Positions 54,990-59,389 of a stretch of 64,000 nucleotides of DNA are shown one piece after another. The notes beneath the pieces are model-generated. The model had not been told where the DNA came from. It worked only from the letters and a program-made list of their open reading frames with translations, and made no database searches. Within the stretch, counting starts at the first letter, position 1; every line of letters starts with the position of its first letter. The stretch covers positions 2,542,001 through 2,606,000 of the forward strand of contig NZ_CP114039.1 of assembly GCF_026965535.1 (NCBI RefSeq), given 5' to 3'. The translations under genes were made by a program, and so were the position numbers. Source of the stretch: Corallococcus sp. NCRR. GTDB taxonomy: Bacteria > Myxococcota > Myxococcia > Myxococcales > Myxococcaceae.

Positions 54990-55061
54990 CGCGGAGAAGA
55001 TGATCGCGTCACCCTCAAGGAACGGTTGGCGCATCGCGCGGGGGGCCATAGGGTCGGGAGT

Positions 55062-57023
55062 GTGGAGCTCTTGTCCCCGCTGCCCGATTCGCACCGCTCG
55101 CTCGTCACCGAAGCCCTGGAGGCACTGGGTGTCACCCGCTGGGTCCTGAGCATCCATGACCCCAGCTTCCCCGGCCTCCCCGGAGAGGACCTGGGGCGCG
55201 GCTCGCCCTACTCCGAGGGCGCCACGCGCTTCCTCGCCTTCGCTCGGGACCTGGGCTTCACCGGCATCCAGCTGGGGCCGCAGGGGCAGACCACCGCGTA
55301 CAACCCGTCGCCGTATGACGGCACGTTGTTCTCACGCAACACGCTGAACGTGGCGCTCGCGCCGCTCACGGATCCGCACGGCCCCTGGGGCGCGCTGCTG
55401 TCCGAGGACACCCTGGCGCGGCTCGTCTCCGAAGTGCCCGGGGATGGGGGGCCGGAGGTCCGGTACGCGTCGGCGTGCCGGGGGCAGGCGCTGGCGCTCC
55501 AGGAGGCGTGGGACACCTTCCGGCGCGAGCGGGACCGCGTGGACGCTCCCGCGTCCATCCTCGCGCTCATCCGCCGCTTCGCGGACTTCCGCCTGGAGCA
55601 GCGCGAATGGCTGGAGCGGGATGCGCTCTTCGACGTGCTCGCCGCCCGGCATCACACGCCGGATGACTGGCGCGGTTGGGCGGACTCGCTGGAGGGGCGC
55701 CTGTTCGCGCCGCGTGCCGGTGAGGTGGTGCAGGCGGAGGCGCGCATCCGGGAGTTGCTCATCTCCGAAGCCGACGCCGTGGAGCAGTACGCCTTCCGCC
55801 AGTTCCTCGTGCACGAGCAGCACGGGCTGCTGCGGGAGCGCGCGGGGGCGTGGGGGCTCAAGCTGTACGGGGACCTCCAGATTGGGTTCTCGCCCCGGGA
55901 CACGTGGGCGCGGCAGGGGCTGTTCCTCGGCGCGTACCTCATGGGGGCTCCGCCCAGCCGCACCAACCCGGAGGGCCAGCCGTGGAACTACCCGGTGCTG
56001 GATCCGGAGCAGTACGTTGCTCCGGATGGCTCGGGTCCCGGGCCGGTGCTGCGCTACCTGGACGCGCGGCTGGGCAAGATGCTCTCCGAGTATGACGGGC
56101 TGCGCATCGACCATCCGCACGGGCTCGTGTGCCCGTGGGTGTACCGCGCGGGCTCAGCGGATCCGCTGCGCGCGGTGCAGGGTGGGGCGCGCCTGTTCTC
56201 CTCGCCGGACCTGCCGGACCACCCGGAATTGGCGCGCTACTCCATCGTGGGACCGGAGCAGCTGAACCGCTCGGTGCCTCGCTACGCGGATGGATGGGTG
56301 ACGGGGCTCACGGAGGAGCAGGTGGCTCGGTACGCCATCCTCTTCGACTCCGTGGTGCGCACGGCGCGGGCGCACGGCCGGGCCCGCGAGGACGTGCTGT
56401 GCGAGGTGCTGAGCACGCTCCCGTACGAGCTGTCACGGGTGATGGCCCGAGACGGCCTGGGCCGCTTCCGCGTCACGCAGAAGGCGGACCTGAACAACCC
56501 GGCGGACGTGTACCGCAGCGAGAACGTGGCCCCCGAGGACTGGGTGATGGTGGGCAACCACGACACGAAGTCACTCTGGCGGCTGGTCTCCGAATGGCAG
56601 TGGAGGCACGCGCTGCGCACCCAGGCGGATTATCTCGCGGAGCGGCTGCATCCCGAAGCGGAGGGGCGTGAGGCCTTCGCGCGTGAGCTGGCACAGGACC
56701 CGGGGCTGCTCGCGCAGGCGAAGTTCGCGGACCTGTTTGCCAGCCGTGCGCGCAGCGTGATGGTGTTCTTCGCGGACCTGCTGGGCATGCCGGACACGTA
56801 CAACGCGCCGGGCTCCGTGGACGCGCGCAACTGGTCGCTGCGCATCCCAACGGACTGGGCCGAGCACTACCAGCAGCGGCTGCGCGTGGGGGCCGCGCTC
56901 AACCTGCCACAGGTGCTCGCCATGGCGCTGCGCGCGGGTGGAGCCGAAGCCCAGGCCCGTCACGCGGACCTGCTGACCCGGCTGGACGCCGCCGCTGCCG
57001 GGCTGCGAAGCGGCGCGCGGTAA
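55062..57023 (+). CDS. malQ: 4-alpha-glucanotransferase (GH77)
   Basis: A 653-residue amylomaltase that transfers alpha-1,4-glucan chains. GH77 features in order: GSPYSEGATRFLAF..., GLKLYGDLQIGFSPRDTW (about 264-282), nucleophile D349 in LRIDHPHGLV, acid/base Glu in VLCEVLSTLP, and the third carboxylate in VMVGNHDTKSLW (about 494-505). Several motif residues differ from classical MalQ (HPHG for HFRG), so it is a divergent member. GTG start at 55062 with GGGAG upstream. No other maltose gene is near. Palindromic repeats follow the stop codon. Confidence 0.85.
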   Translation: MELLSPLPDSHRSLVTEALEALGVTRWVLSIHDPSFPGLPGEDLGRGSPYSEGATRFLAFARDLGFTGIQLGPQGQTTAYNPSPYDGTLFSRNTLNVALAPLTDPHGPWGALLSEDTLARLVSEVPGDGGPEVRYASACRGQALALQEAWDTFRRERDRVDAPASILALIRRFADFRLEQREWLERDALFDVLAARHHTPDDWRGWADSLEGRLFAPRAGEVVQAEARIRELLISEADAVEQYAFRQFLVHEQHGLLRERAGAWGLKLYGDLQIGFSPRDTWARQGLFLGAYLMGAPPSRTNPEGQPWNYPVLDPEQYVAPDGSGPGPVLRYLDARLGKMLSEYDGLRIDHPHGLVCPWVYRAGSADPLRAVQGGARLFSSPDLPDHPELARYSIVGPEQLNRSVPRYADGWVTGLTEEQVARYAILFDSVVRTARAHGRAREDVLCEVLSTLPYELSRVMARDGLGRFRVTQKADLNNPADVYRSENVAPEDWVMVGNHDTKSLWRLVSEWQWRHALRTQADYLAERLHPEAEGREAFARELAQDPGLLAQAKFADLFASRARSVMVFFADLLGMPDTYNAPGSVDARNWSLRIPTDWAEHYQQRLRVGAALNLPQVLAMALRAGGAEAQARHADLLTRLDAAAAGLRSGAR

Positions 57024-57359
57024 GCTGCACCTTCCGCGCCAGGACATGCGGCGCTGCACGGCGGCGCGTGGGACGCTCCGGCGGAGGCGCAGCGCGAAAA
57101 CCTGTCCGACAGTCGGACCGGTCTTGAGCGCCCGGGGTTGGGAGGCTCCCGCTTCACCCGAGCCGTGGAAACCTGTCCGACAGTCGGACAGGTTTTGGAT
57201 GACCGTGGCCGGGGGCGCTCTCTCCATCGGGAGCACGCGACACACACTTGTCCGACAGCCGGACGCGCTTGGGAGAACTGGGGCTCGGCTACCCTCGGAT
57301 CCACGTGGCATGGACCTGTCCGACAGTCGGACAGGTTTTGGATGACCGTGGCCGGGGGC
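57024..57359. repeat. Array of four spaced palindromes, with an exact 46-bp duplication
   Basis: The 336 bases between two convergent genes carry four copies of a 21-bp palindrome with arms CCTGTCCGAC and GTCGGACAGG around one central A. Centres are at about 57111, 57182, 57257 and 57325, so the spacing is 71, 75 and 68 bp. Copies 2 and 4 are perfect and start an exact 46-bp repeat (57171-57216 and 57314-57359); copies 1 and 3 carry mismatches. Copies are flanked by A on the left and T on the right, so each could act as a bidirectional terminator hairpin. I see no gene here. Confidence 0.85.
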
Positions 57360-58475
57360 TCAGGTGATGCGCCGCATGTCGAAGCGTGATTGGAGCGTCC
57401 ACTGCCCAGCGGCGTCCTGTACCTCGCCGCGCCAGGTGAAGCGGTCCGCGCCGATGTCGGAGAAGCTCCAGCGGATGGGCTTCCCGTGGTGCTCACCCAG
57501 GAGCACGAGCCGGTCGCCATCACGTCCCCCGGACAGCCGGTTGATGGCGTCGCCTGTGGGGCTGATCCAGGTGATCTGCCACTTCCCTCCAGCCCGGTCG
57601 AAAGTTCGCACCGTGGTGCCGTAGCGCCTGTTCGCCCCGGGACCTGACTGCGCGGGGGCGCGCCTGGACGGCACGATGAACACGTCCTGCAGGGCCCGCC
57701 CCTCCAGCACCCAGTGGAACCACCACTCACCGTGGCTCTCGCGAACGCTCCCATCGGAGTCATGGTCCTGGATGGTCCCGGCCCAGCCTCCCACCAGCCA
57801 CCCGAAGGTGGCCGCCGCGTCGCCCAGCTCGCTCGAAGGACCCGGGCTCATCAGTGCCTCCACGAACGCCTGCGCCACGGACATGGGCGCGGCGGGCCCT
57901 TCCGCGAGCCTGCGCCAGATGCCGGCGTATTCGATGGGCAGCCCGTCCGTGTCCACGTCCAGTATCGCGTGGAAGCCGCTCTCCAGGCTCTCGTAGCGGT
58001 AGCGCGCCGGGCCCACGCATGTGTAGCCCTGTCGCGCGGGCACGACCTCCAGCGAAGGGAACCGCACCCAGGCCGCGCGGATCTCCGCGCTGGCGCCTTC
58101 TTCCAGCCGCAACCGGTTGATGGGCAGCGCGTTGGTGGAGGGGCTCAAGCCCAGGTCCACATCCGTGCAGCCCTCCAACTCCTCCGCGTCCCGGCCGTTC
58201 TTCCGCCAGTGTCCCTCCCCGTCATGCTCCAACGTGAGCGCGCGACGCTCGCCCCGCCACGACTGCGTCACGCTCACCCGGCGCGTGCGCCATGCATCGT
58301 CACAGACGATCGAATACTCCGCCCTCAGCGGTGCTCCCTGTTCCGCGACCAGGATCAGCCCGGACAGCTCCGTGCCATCCGGGCCACGCCGCACGTGTGC
58401 ATGCTCGAACCCCCGTTCATCCATCACGCGCCGCCAGATGATCTCGCGCGTGACTGCTGTTGCCTCCGTCGCCAT
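57360..58475 (-). CDS. Putative glycolipid-binding domain fused to DUF1579-like domain
   Basis: A 371-residue soluble protein in two parts. Residues about 10-195 match the putative glycolipid-binding family (COG3554): GPDGTELSGLILVAEQGAPL, YSIVCDDAWRTRRVSV, GCTDVDLGLSPSTNALPINR and VDTDGLPIEYAGIW. Residues about 225-371 resemble DUF1579-type barrels (FGWLVGGWAGTI, GEWWFHWVLEGRALQDVFIV). The two domains usually occur apart. No signal peptide is seen. It is divergent, by only 35 bases, from an AraC regulator that probably controls it. Confidence 0.7.
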   Translation of the reverse strand: MATEATAVTREIIWRRVMDERGFEHAHVRRGPDGTELSGLILVAEQGAPLRAEYSIVCDDAWRTRRVSVTQSWRGERRALTLEHDGEGHWRKNGRDAEELEGCTDVDLGLSPSTNALPINRLRLEEGASAEIRAAWVRFPSLEVVPARQGYTCVGPARYRYESLESGFHAILDVDTDGLPIEYAGIWRRLAEGPAAPMSVAQAFVEALMSPGPSSELGDAAATFGWLVGGWAGTIQDHDSDGSVRESHGEWWFHWVLEGRALQDVFIVPSRRAPAQSGPGANRRYGTTVRTFDRAGGKWQITWISPTGDAINRLSGGRDGDRLVLLGEHHGKPIRWSFSDIGADRFTWRGEVQDAAGQWTLQSRFDMRRIT

Positions 58476-58510
58476 GATTCGGTCACCCCGTTTGGATGTG
58501 CGGGGAGAGG

Positions 58511-59389
58511 ATGGAAGGACGGACCTTGGCCGACTTGGGGAAAGTGGACCTGACCACGGCTCGACGGCTTGCGTCCGGAGACGGCTGGCGCGTGAGCGAG
58601 ATCCTCTGCCGCTCCGGCCCCAGGGACCCCGTCTTCGAGGAACAGCACACCTGGGTGTCCGTCTCCGCCGTCCTGTCGGGGAGCTTCACCTACCGCTCCC
58701 GGAACGGCCGCGTGCTGCTCACGCCCGGCTCGCTGCTGCTCGGGGAACAGCACTCGTCCTTCTGCTGCGGCCACGAGCACGGCGTGGGCGACCGCTGCAT
58801 CGCCTTCCATTTCAAACCCGAGCTCATGGAAGAGGTGGCCCGGGACCTGTCCGGGGTGACGCGCACGGACTTCCCCTGGCACCGGCTGCCACCCCTCCAG
58901 CGGCTCGCACCGCTCATCGCGGACGTGCAGGCGCTGGCCGAGCATCCCGGCTCGCGCGGCGCGGAGGAGCTGGCGCTGCGGATGGCGGGCGCGGCGCTGA
59001 GCGGCATCCACGAGGGCTCCACCCGGCCCGTCACCGCCACCGAGGAGCGCCGCTTGGCGGACGCGCTCCGGTTGATGGAGACCCGGCTGGTGGAGCCCCT
59101 CTCCCTGGACGTGTTCGCGCAAGCGCTGGGCATGGGCCGTCACCACTTCCTGCGCACCTTCCGCAAGGTGGTGGGAGAGAGCCCCTACAGCTACATCCTG
59201 GGCCGCCGCCTGACACTCGCCGCCGAACGCCTGCGGACGGACGGTGAGCGCATCGCGGACATCGCCTATGCGTGTGGGTTTGGCGACCTGTCTGAGTTCG
59301 TCCGCCGCTTCCGTGCCCGCTTCGGCATCACGCCGTCCGCGTACCGGGCCCGCGCTCGACCCGGGTCGACCGGGACAGAGCGGGTCTAA
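58511..59389 (+). CDS. AraC-family transcriptional regulator
   Basis: A 292-residue regulator: cupin-like N-terminal sensing domain (about 20-140, SVSAVLSGSFTYRSRNGRVL) and a two-HTH C-terminal domain (about 180-280) with FAQALGMGRHHFLRTFRKVV and IADIAYACGFGDLSEFVRRF then GITPSAYRA. The pattern is complete. The 35-base gap to the divergent glycolipid-binding gene suggests it regulates that gene and itself. The start is unsure: ATG 58511 has GGGGAGAGG directly adjacent, and ATG 58496 is also in frame. Confidence 0.88.
   Translation: MEGRTLADLGKVDLTTARRLASGDGWRVSEILCRSGPRDPVFEEQHTWVSVSAVLSGSFTYRSRNGRVLLTPGSLLLGEQHSSFCCGHEHGVGDRCIAFHFKPELMEEVARDLSGVTRTDFPWHRLPPLQRLAPLIADVQALAEHPGSRGAEELALRMAGAALSGIHEGSTRPVTATEERRLADALRLMETRLVEPLSLDVFAQALGMGRHHFLRTFRKVVGESPYSYILGRRLTLAAERLRTDGERIADIAYACGFGDLSEFVRRFRARFGITPSAYRARARPGSTGTERV

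Follow-up and report, generated by a model that had tools for sequence, protein, structure and literature searches.

The palindromes that form a tandem array between two convergent genes of Corallococcus sp. NCRR belong to a real and apparently undescribed family of repeats, which probably represent the dispersed operator-type sites of a multi-copy FadR-type regulator from the GntR family, i.e. a repeat with REP-like behaviour that would not itself be a REP. The same palindrome stands before every regulator copy that we examined, which gives the repeats the look of binding sites that have become dispersed. Unexpectedly, away from the regulator genes the single central base of this otherwise symmetric sequence tends to be oriented with respect to replication in the origin-proximal half of the chromosome, and this apparent polarity is the surprising part of the family. 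A literature search, with most subscription papers outside its coverage, did not find the family described, and the 17-mer core occurred in none of the papers.

The array in the analysed window

The window, i.e. the whole stretch of 64,000 bp that was analysed (C1:2542001-2606000), lies in a genome assembled as a single contig of 9,787,125 bp (9.79 Mb). It contains four 17-bp cores on the forward strand: copy 1 at 57103..57119 (TGTCCGACAGTCGGACC, one mismatch), copy 2 at 57174..57190 (perfect), copy 3 at 57249..57265 (TGTCCGACAGCCGGACG, two mismatches) and copy 4 at 57317..57333 (perfect), with core-to-core spacings of 71, 75 and 68 bp. Both perfect copies carry the A-centre on the forward strand, which is the leading strand here. 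The longest exact repeat in the interval is a forward-strand unit of 46 bp (57171..57216 and 57314..57359), whose second copy extends as far as the stop codon of the reverse-strand gene. The array is flanked by the gene for a GH77 4-alpha-glucanotransferase (55062..57023, forward strand; the start is that of our home-made caller, the longest ORF beginning at 55026) and by the gene for a putative glycolipid-binding protein (PF06475; 57360..58475, reverse strand). The first-pass annotation of this DNA had described the four palindromes, their spacings, the two perfect copies, the identical 46-bp unit and the convergent setting, and the sequence analysis confirms this description; its remark that the window holds no other copy is valid for cores with up to three mismatches, none of which were found elsewhere in the window. 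Rfam covariance models gave no match at E values up to 1 in the region 56000-59000.

Extent and anatomy of the family

Exact copies of the core TGTCCGACNGTCGGACA number 60 in the genome, compared to zero occurrences of the reversed control, and the family therefore exceeds chance; in 59 of the 60 exact cores the central base is A or T. In a survey of 59 relatives (own genome included), the core was found in all 16 genomes of the genus Corallococcus, with 3 to 135 exact copies per genome, and in none of the 43 others. In a named genome collection, the core was also found in Hyalangium versicolor and in a Myxococcaceae MAG, among the matches listed. On two contigs of Hyalangium versicolor (L095 and L181) the palindrome lies in what seems to be the same repeated segment, on opposite strands, and no regulator gene was found within the 8 kb examined there. 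The variant GGTCCGANNGTCGGACC is abundant in five genomes of the genus and in one genome outside it (G022). The count in the genome and its relatives, which the first-pass annotation had proposed as a check, supports a genome-wide family whose arrays differ in length between species and which prefers the 3' ends of genes. The palindrome is neither unique to this spot nor randomly placed.

When up to two mismatches to either of the two core forms are allowed, 38 site-bearing regions of 20 kb together with the window contain 143 copies in 43 clusters. According to the flank profile of these copies, the conserved part is approximately AAAACC-core-GGTTTT, and a G+C-rich spacer with little conservation makes up the remainder of the unit. 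The left half of the A-centred core reads TGTCCGACA, which is a complete TGTC-N-GACA, and it is at N that the common C-to-G change (44/143 copies) falls. As RNA, the palindrome would form a hairpin of 10-13 bp on either strand. Neighbouring copies less than 160 bp apart (97 spacings) lie 36 to 147 bp from each other, with 52 of the spacings at 67-76 bp and a smaller, secondary maximum at 60 bp (8 of 97). Helical phasing is rejected by this spread, and the observation of the first-pass annotation that the spacing is near seven helical turns does not amount to a rule. One array with at least ten cores (L066, C1:8631360-8632011) has a period of 60 bp rather than 70 bp.

A multi-copy FadR-type regulator as the partner gene

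In an all-against-all comparison, many of the palindromes proved to adjoin a dispersed repeat some 870 bp long, which corresponds to a GntR-family gene, a partner that the first-pass annotation had missed, as it had the link between the central base and replication. A protein search with an E-value limit of 1e-8 finds exactly eight copies in the genome, the weakest of which has an E value of 6.8e-114, and all eight carry the palindrome 95-123 bp upstream of the start. One regulator of this genome, for instance, is a 325-aa protein encoded at C1:2416728-2417702. In the genus as a whole it precedes 30 of 30 regulator copies (the eight own ones included) with at most one mismatch and within 260 bp, when the set is made up of protein-search loci with at least 180 bp of upstream sequence (two loci that were too short were dropped) and the ends of the core are left unscored. 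The distance to the start ranges from 94 to 225 bp and is mostly 94-129 bp. In two of the 30 (L208 and L224) the promoter-proximal copy has two mismatches and a perfect copy lies farther upstream; in L224 the promoter copy is changed symmetrically on both arms. In the genomes with one to six regulator copies, with the G005 locus left out, the palindrome shows no mismatch at the scored positions in seven of seven loci (one each in G002, G008 and G015, two each in G006 and G012). The regulator is single-copy in G002, G005, G008 and G015.

Copy numbers of the gene and the palindrome vary together across the 16 genomes of the genus, in which the regulator reaches up to 15 copies per genome: the Spearman coefficient is 0.82 for the TGTCC form (p 1e-4) and 0.92 when the GGTCC variant is added. 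Outside the genus, the GGTCC variant matches at 18 forward positions in G022, a family member with a single regulator gene, and one of these matches lies 200 bp upstream of that gene. On the other hand, one genome (G014) contains five palindromes and no regulator match, and two genomes outside the genus (G018 and G029) contain three to four regulator copies and neither variant of the palindrome, which indicates that the regulator does not need the palindrome everywhere.

A palindrome is also found at the 3' end of the gene (behind codon 235, with at most two mismatches) in 15 of the 30 protein-search loci, and the tail of 26 of 49 proteins includes an LSDCRT-like stretch, which is the encoded product of the palindrome in that frame. 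Among 2000 random 700-bp stretches of element-rich regions, 120 hold such a palindrome. A second box was present in all of the 50 distinct upstream regions, in nearly all of them as TGTCAGAC or TGTCAGAG 51-59 bp before the start, many of these loci having been chosen for holding the palindrome. In regulator promoters such as L192 in this genome and L214 in G029, the box has the form TGTCAGAC(C/A) and a distance of about 52 bp to the start. The two homologues from outside the genus, L214 and L215, thus have the box as well, and no palindrome was found at either (in L215 within just 68 bp of upstream sequence).

The regulator has a GntR helix-turn-helix according to Pfam (PF00392, E 1.1e-12), which reported no family for the C-terminal domain. 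In the structure model, built from 43 sequences (pLDDT 78.8), a winged helix is followed by an all-helical domain up to about residue 231 and by a low-confidence, variable tail, and the best structural match is E. coli FadR (E 2e-6). The predicted combination of a GntR winged helix with an all-helical C-terminal domain of the FadR type places the protein in the FadR group of GntR regulators. Residues R43, T45 and R47, invariant in all 43 sequences, correspond to R45, T47 and R49 of FadR in an equal-length profile alignment to 1hw1; these FadR residues are listed among the DNA-contact sites in PMC4259882. The tails of some regulators hold tandem peptide repeats (L224, L161), and tail length differs strongly between copies.

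Four regulator loci have counterparts at corresponding positions in G009, and two of the four also in G013. A regulator insert of 1.49 kb that this genome lacks begins in G009 directly after the upstream stop codon. In G013, about 8 kb of other DNA (L229, 10287-18257) lies at the position of the regulator unit found at L045 in this genome and at L239 in G009. Regulator copies are often closest to copies from the same genome, and this likeness suggests that they may undergo gene conversion.

Genomic placement and variation of the arrays

Solo copies and arrays with a period of about 70 bp sit at the 3' ends of genes. Regulator-distant clusters occupy 11 convergent, 20 codirectional and one divergent gap, against a background (gaps of at least 80 bp) of 29 convergent, 155 codirectional and 110 divergent ones; divergent gaps are depleted of clusters (p 1.9e-5) and convergent gaps are enriched (p 4.8e-4), which bears out the preference for 3' gene ends that the first-pass annotation had proposed to test. 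Just two of the 43 clusters lie within predicted genes, one of them a regulator gene; genes were predicted with a home-made codon-usage caller, by which most of the regulator genes were missed. All four cores of the array L058 (C1:4604092-4604327), whose polarity opposes its replichore, lie inside a predicted ORF of 6.8 kb.

Array length is often unequal at orthologous sites: among 27 comparable pairs, in which the loci from other species had been chosen for holding a palindrome, there are differences of 7 vs 1, 11 vs 1 and 10 vs 3 copies. Some collinear sites (L068/L170, L056/L108) do not share the same centre base, a difference for which contraction of mixed arrays could account without mutation. 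In two pairs of occupied and empty sites compared by eye (L238/L235 and L240/L231), the sequences part from the upstream gene's stop codon onwards, with no clear target-site duplication of the kind that a MITE or transposon insertion would leave.

Polarity of the central base

The dnaA gene lies at 2,029,960 in this genome and at the contig start in G013 and G009, and the GC skew switches sign between the chromosome arms (+0.021 vs -0.026). In the origin-proximal half of these three complete genomes, there are 69 decidable regulator-distant clusters and seven ties, and 66 of the 69 have the A-centre on the leading strand: 18/19 (one tie) here, 25/26 (two ties) in G013 and 23/24 (four ties) in G009, counts that are not independent, as the genomes share orthologous loci. 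In the terminus half the figure is 24/39, with four ties (8/10 here, 7/12 with three ties in G013 and 9/17 with one tie in G009). The halves were taken as a quarter of the genome length on either side of dnaA, with the terminus at the midpoint, and clusters were defined with 600 bp and regulator distance with a 700-bp margin; all of these values were chosen after the lists had been inspected. Counted as single copies, 48/59 here, 71/89 in G013 and 73 of the first 100 of 135 sites in G009 follow the polarity. Clearly discordant arrays in this genome are L058, L060, L067 and L054. Near the regulator, five of five decidable clusters in the origin half of this genome follow replication; genus-wide, the centre in regulator promoters tends to follow the sense of the gene (A 36, T 14 of 50).

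Polarity of the whole element is rejected, because the flanks do not follow the direction of replication: they predict it in 10/21 cases, in 17/29 when regulator-linked clusters are included and in 8/14 in the terminus half, so that polarity is confined to the centre and to the C/G variation at core position 4. The direction of the genes is rejected as the cause, as clusters in convergent gaps and in lagging-strand codirectional gaps mostly track the replichore. General strand composition is rejected since the leading strand is T-rich, contrary to the A-centre, and a generic effect of hairpins since other palindromes lack a centre bias: in sampled sequence, odd-centred palindromes with arms of at least 5 have 237 A and 235 T in genic and 42 A and 30 T in intergenic positions.

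It is conceivable, though in our estimate less likely than not, that mutation or insertion coupled to replication has left the polarity behind, either by template switching at hairpins or by single-strand insertion at the lagging-strand template, which would be compatible with any reading of the family. That the polarity tracks the replichore rather than gene direction, that the flanks are free of it, and that in L066 the centres vary from unit to unit, with spacers that are direct repeats of 92% identity, would all fit, as would the strand bias of template-switch mutation at quasipalindromes reported in PMC7202029. Against it, the other odd-centred palindromes show no bias, the terminus half has no clear polarity, and the leading strand is T-rich, contrary to the A-centre. 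It is improbable, in our estimate, that the operator of the regulator has become a dispersed polar chromosome-marking system, in which intergenic arrays would be read directionally, the A-centre marking the direction from origin to terminus in the origin-proximal half, and might act on replication, on transcription or on translocating chromosome-structuring complexes, either as polar roadblocks or by organising them.

Discussion

We infer binding of the palindrome by the regulator from association and sequence resemblance, and the effect of the arrays and the mode of copy spread are to be understood in the same conditional way. The ancestral unit was probably palindrome - ~0.1 kb - regulator gene - palindrome, the second palindrome being inside or beside the variable 3' coding end. 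Additional gene-less palindromes at 3' gene ends throughout the chromosome would grow and shrink as tandem arrays of ~70-bp units, and the array in the window would be one of them; there, bound regulator could titrate the protein, mark or block the DNA between the convergent genes, or do nothing useful. The putative sites resemble operators of FadR/GntR regulators in the GT-NNN-AC core with dyad symmetry and in the invariance of the recognition residues; moreover, the GGTCC variant (e.g. L238) contains CTGGTCCGAC, which is also part of the fadL FadR probe in PMC4259882. They differ from such operators in that two overlapping half-sites form a longer palindrome of 17-27 bp and in that the palindromes mostly occur in arrays away from promoters. 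The protein-binding option of the first-pass annotation is thereby supported in the form of a putative regulator operator. Several observations do not fit this picture easily: the regulators without either palindrome variant in G018 and G029, the five palindromes without a regulator match in G014, the 3' palindrome in just half of the 30 loci, the location of most arrays at 3' gene ends, where they would be useless for a classical repressor, and the position of the promoter palindrome, mostly 94-129 bp upstream, which is far for simple repression.

The family shares with REP, BIME and REPIN elements the short, extragenic, clustered palindrome in many copies (60 exact cores, with 2/43 clusters intragenic) and the restriction to a genus, as well as a partner gene that is bordered by palindromes at some loci, as RAYT genes are flanked by REPs according to PMC2817692. 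A classical REP/BIME or REPIN family that is mobilised by a RAYT transposase of the Y1 tyrosine type is nonetheless very improbable. The Y1 transposase domain (PF01797) was absent from all 16 genomes of the genus (0/1 own, 0/15 others), with 5 of 14 control genomes positive, so that the RAYT-type enzyme which the first-pass annotation had proposed to look for was not found; the flank profile of the 143 copies contains neither the GTAG nor the CGTC tetranucleotide that defines the REP superfamilies in PMC3733652; and arrays are mostly head-to-tail instead of alternating as in BIMEs. Most arrays of at least four copies have one centre polarity (including L036, L037, L040, L042, L044, L055 and L057), and in the mixed ones (L033, L041, L062 and L066) the spacers are directly repeated where they are clearly alike. 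The partner, too, is predicted to be a DNA-binding regulator with a fold matching FadR, in up to 15 copies, and not a single-copy Y1 transposase. Since the family fails the tag and transposase tests, we do not file it as a REP, and of the initial REP/BIME-like label only the behaviour is retained. A role as bidirectional terminators or stabilisers of mRNA 3' ends, spread through usefulness between genes, seems unlikely to us. It would profit from the convergent enrichment and divergent depletion of regulator-distant clusters (p 5e-4 and 2e-5) and from a perfect hairpin of 12-13 bp in both strands (10 bp on one strand of copy 4), with short A/T runs and z-scores of -3.4 to -4.8 for 41-nt stretches; however, the U-run is short, the scan for intrinsic terminators by the 5-T rule gave no match despite the strong hairpin, most regulator genes have a copy in their promoter region 94-129 bp upstream, and the co-variation with regulator copy number would be left unexplained. 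The terminator option raised at first reading is accordingly disfavoured.

Rather doubtful, though a better candidate than a terminator, is a neutral selfish repeat that spreads by recombination or template switching at hairpins and has no function outside the regulator promoters. The wide variation in the length of orthologous arrays (7 vs 1, 11 vs 1), the range of 3 to 135 exact cores between species and the within-species likeness of regulator copies, with the gene conversion it suggests, would be expected of such an element, but not the exactness of the arm sequence in many copies, the symmetric alteration of both arms in the L224 promoter copy or the strong bias of the centre base near the origin. 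As to a role in the chromosome, SlmA, Noc, parS and matS represent dispersed chromosome-organising sites, which the family resembles in its many short palindromes chromosome-wide, presumably bound here by one protein family; however, a copy number of 3 to 135 between species distinguishes it from them and argues against a fixed housekeeping system. Chi, KOPS and AIMS are replication-polarised motifs, and the orientation relative to the replication fork is common to them and to our family, in which, by contrast, a single central base carries the polarity, the palindrome being symmetric in all other respects, and does so only in the origin half.

If the reading of the palindrome as an operator is true, the family would represent REP-like amplification with a transcription factor as the partner, the repeat being apparently its operator, and repeat families may then need no dedicated transposase in order to spread. 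In an otherwise symmetric palindrome, a polarity of one base that follows replication would be a natural record of either a strand-specific process at hairpins or polar binding of a protein.
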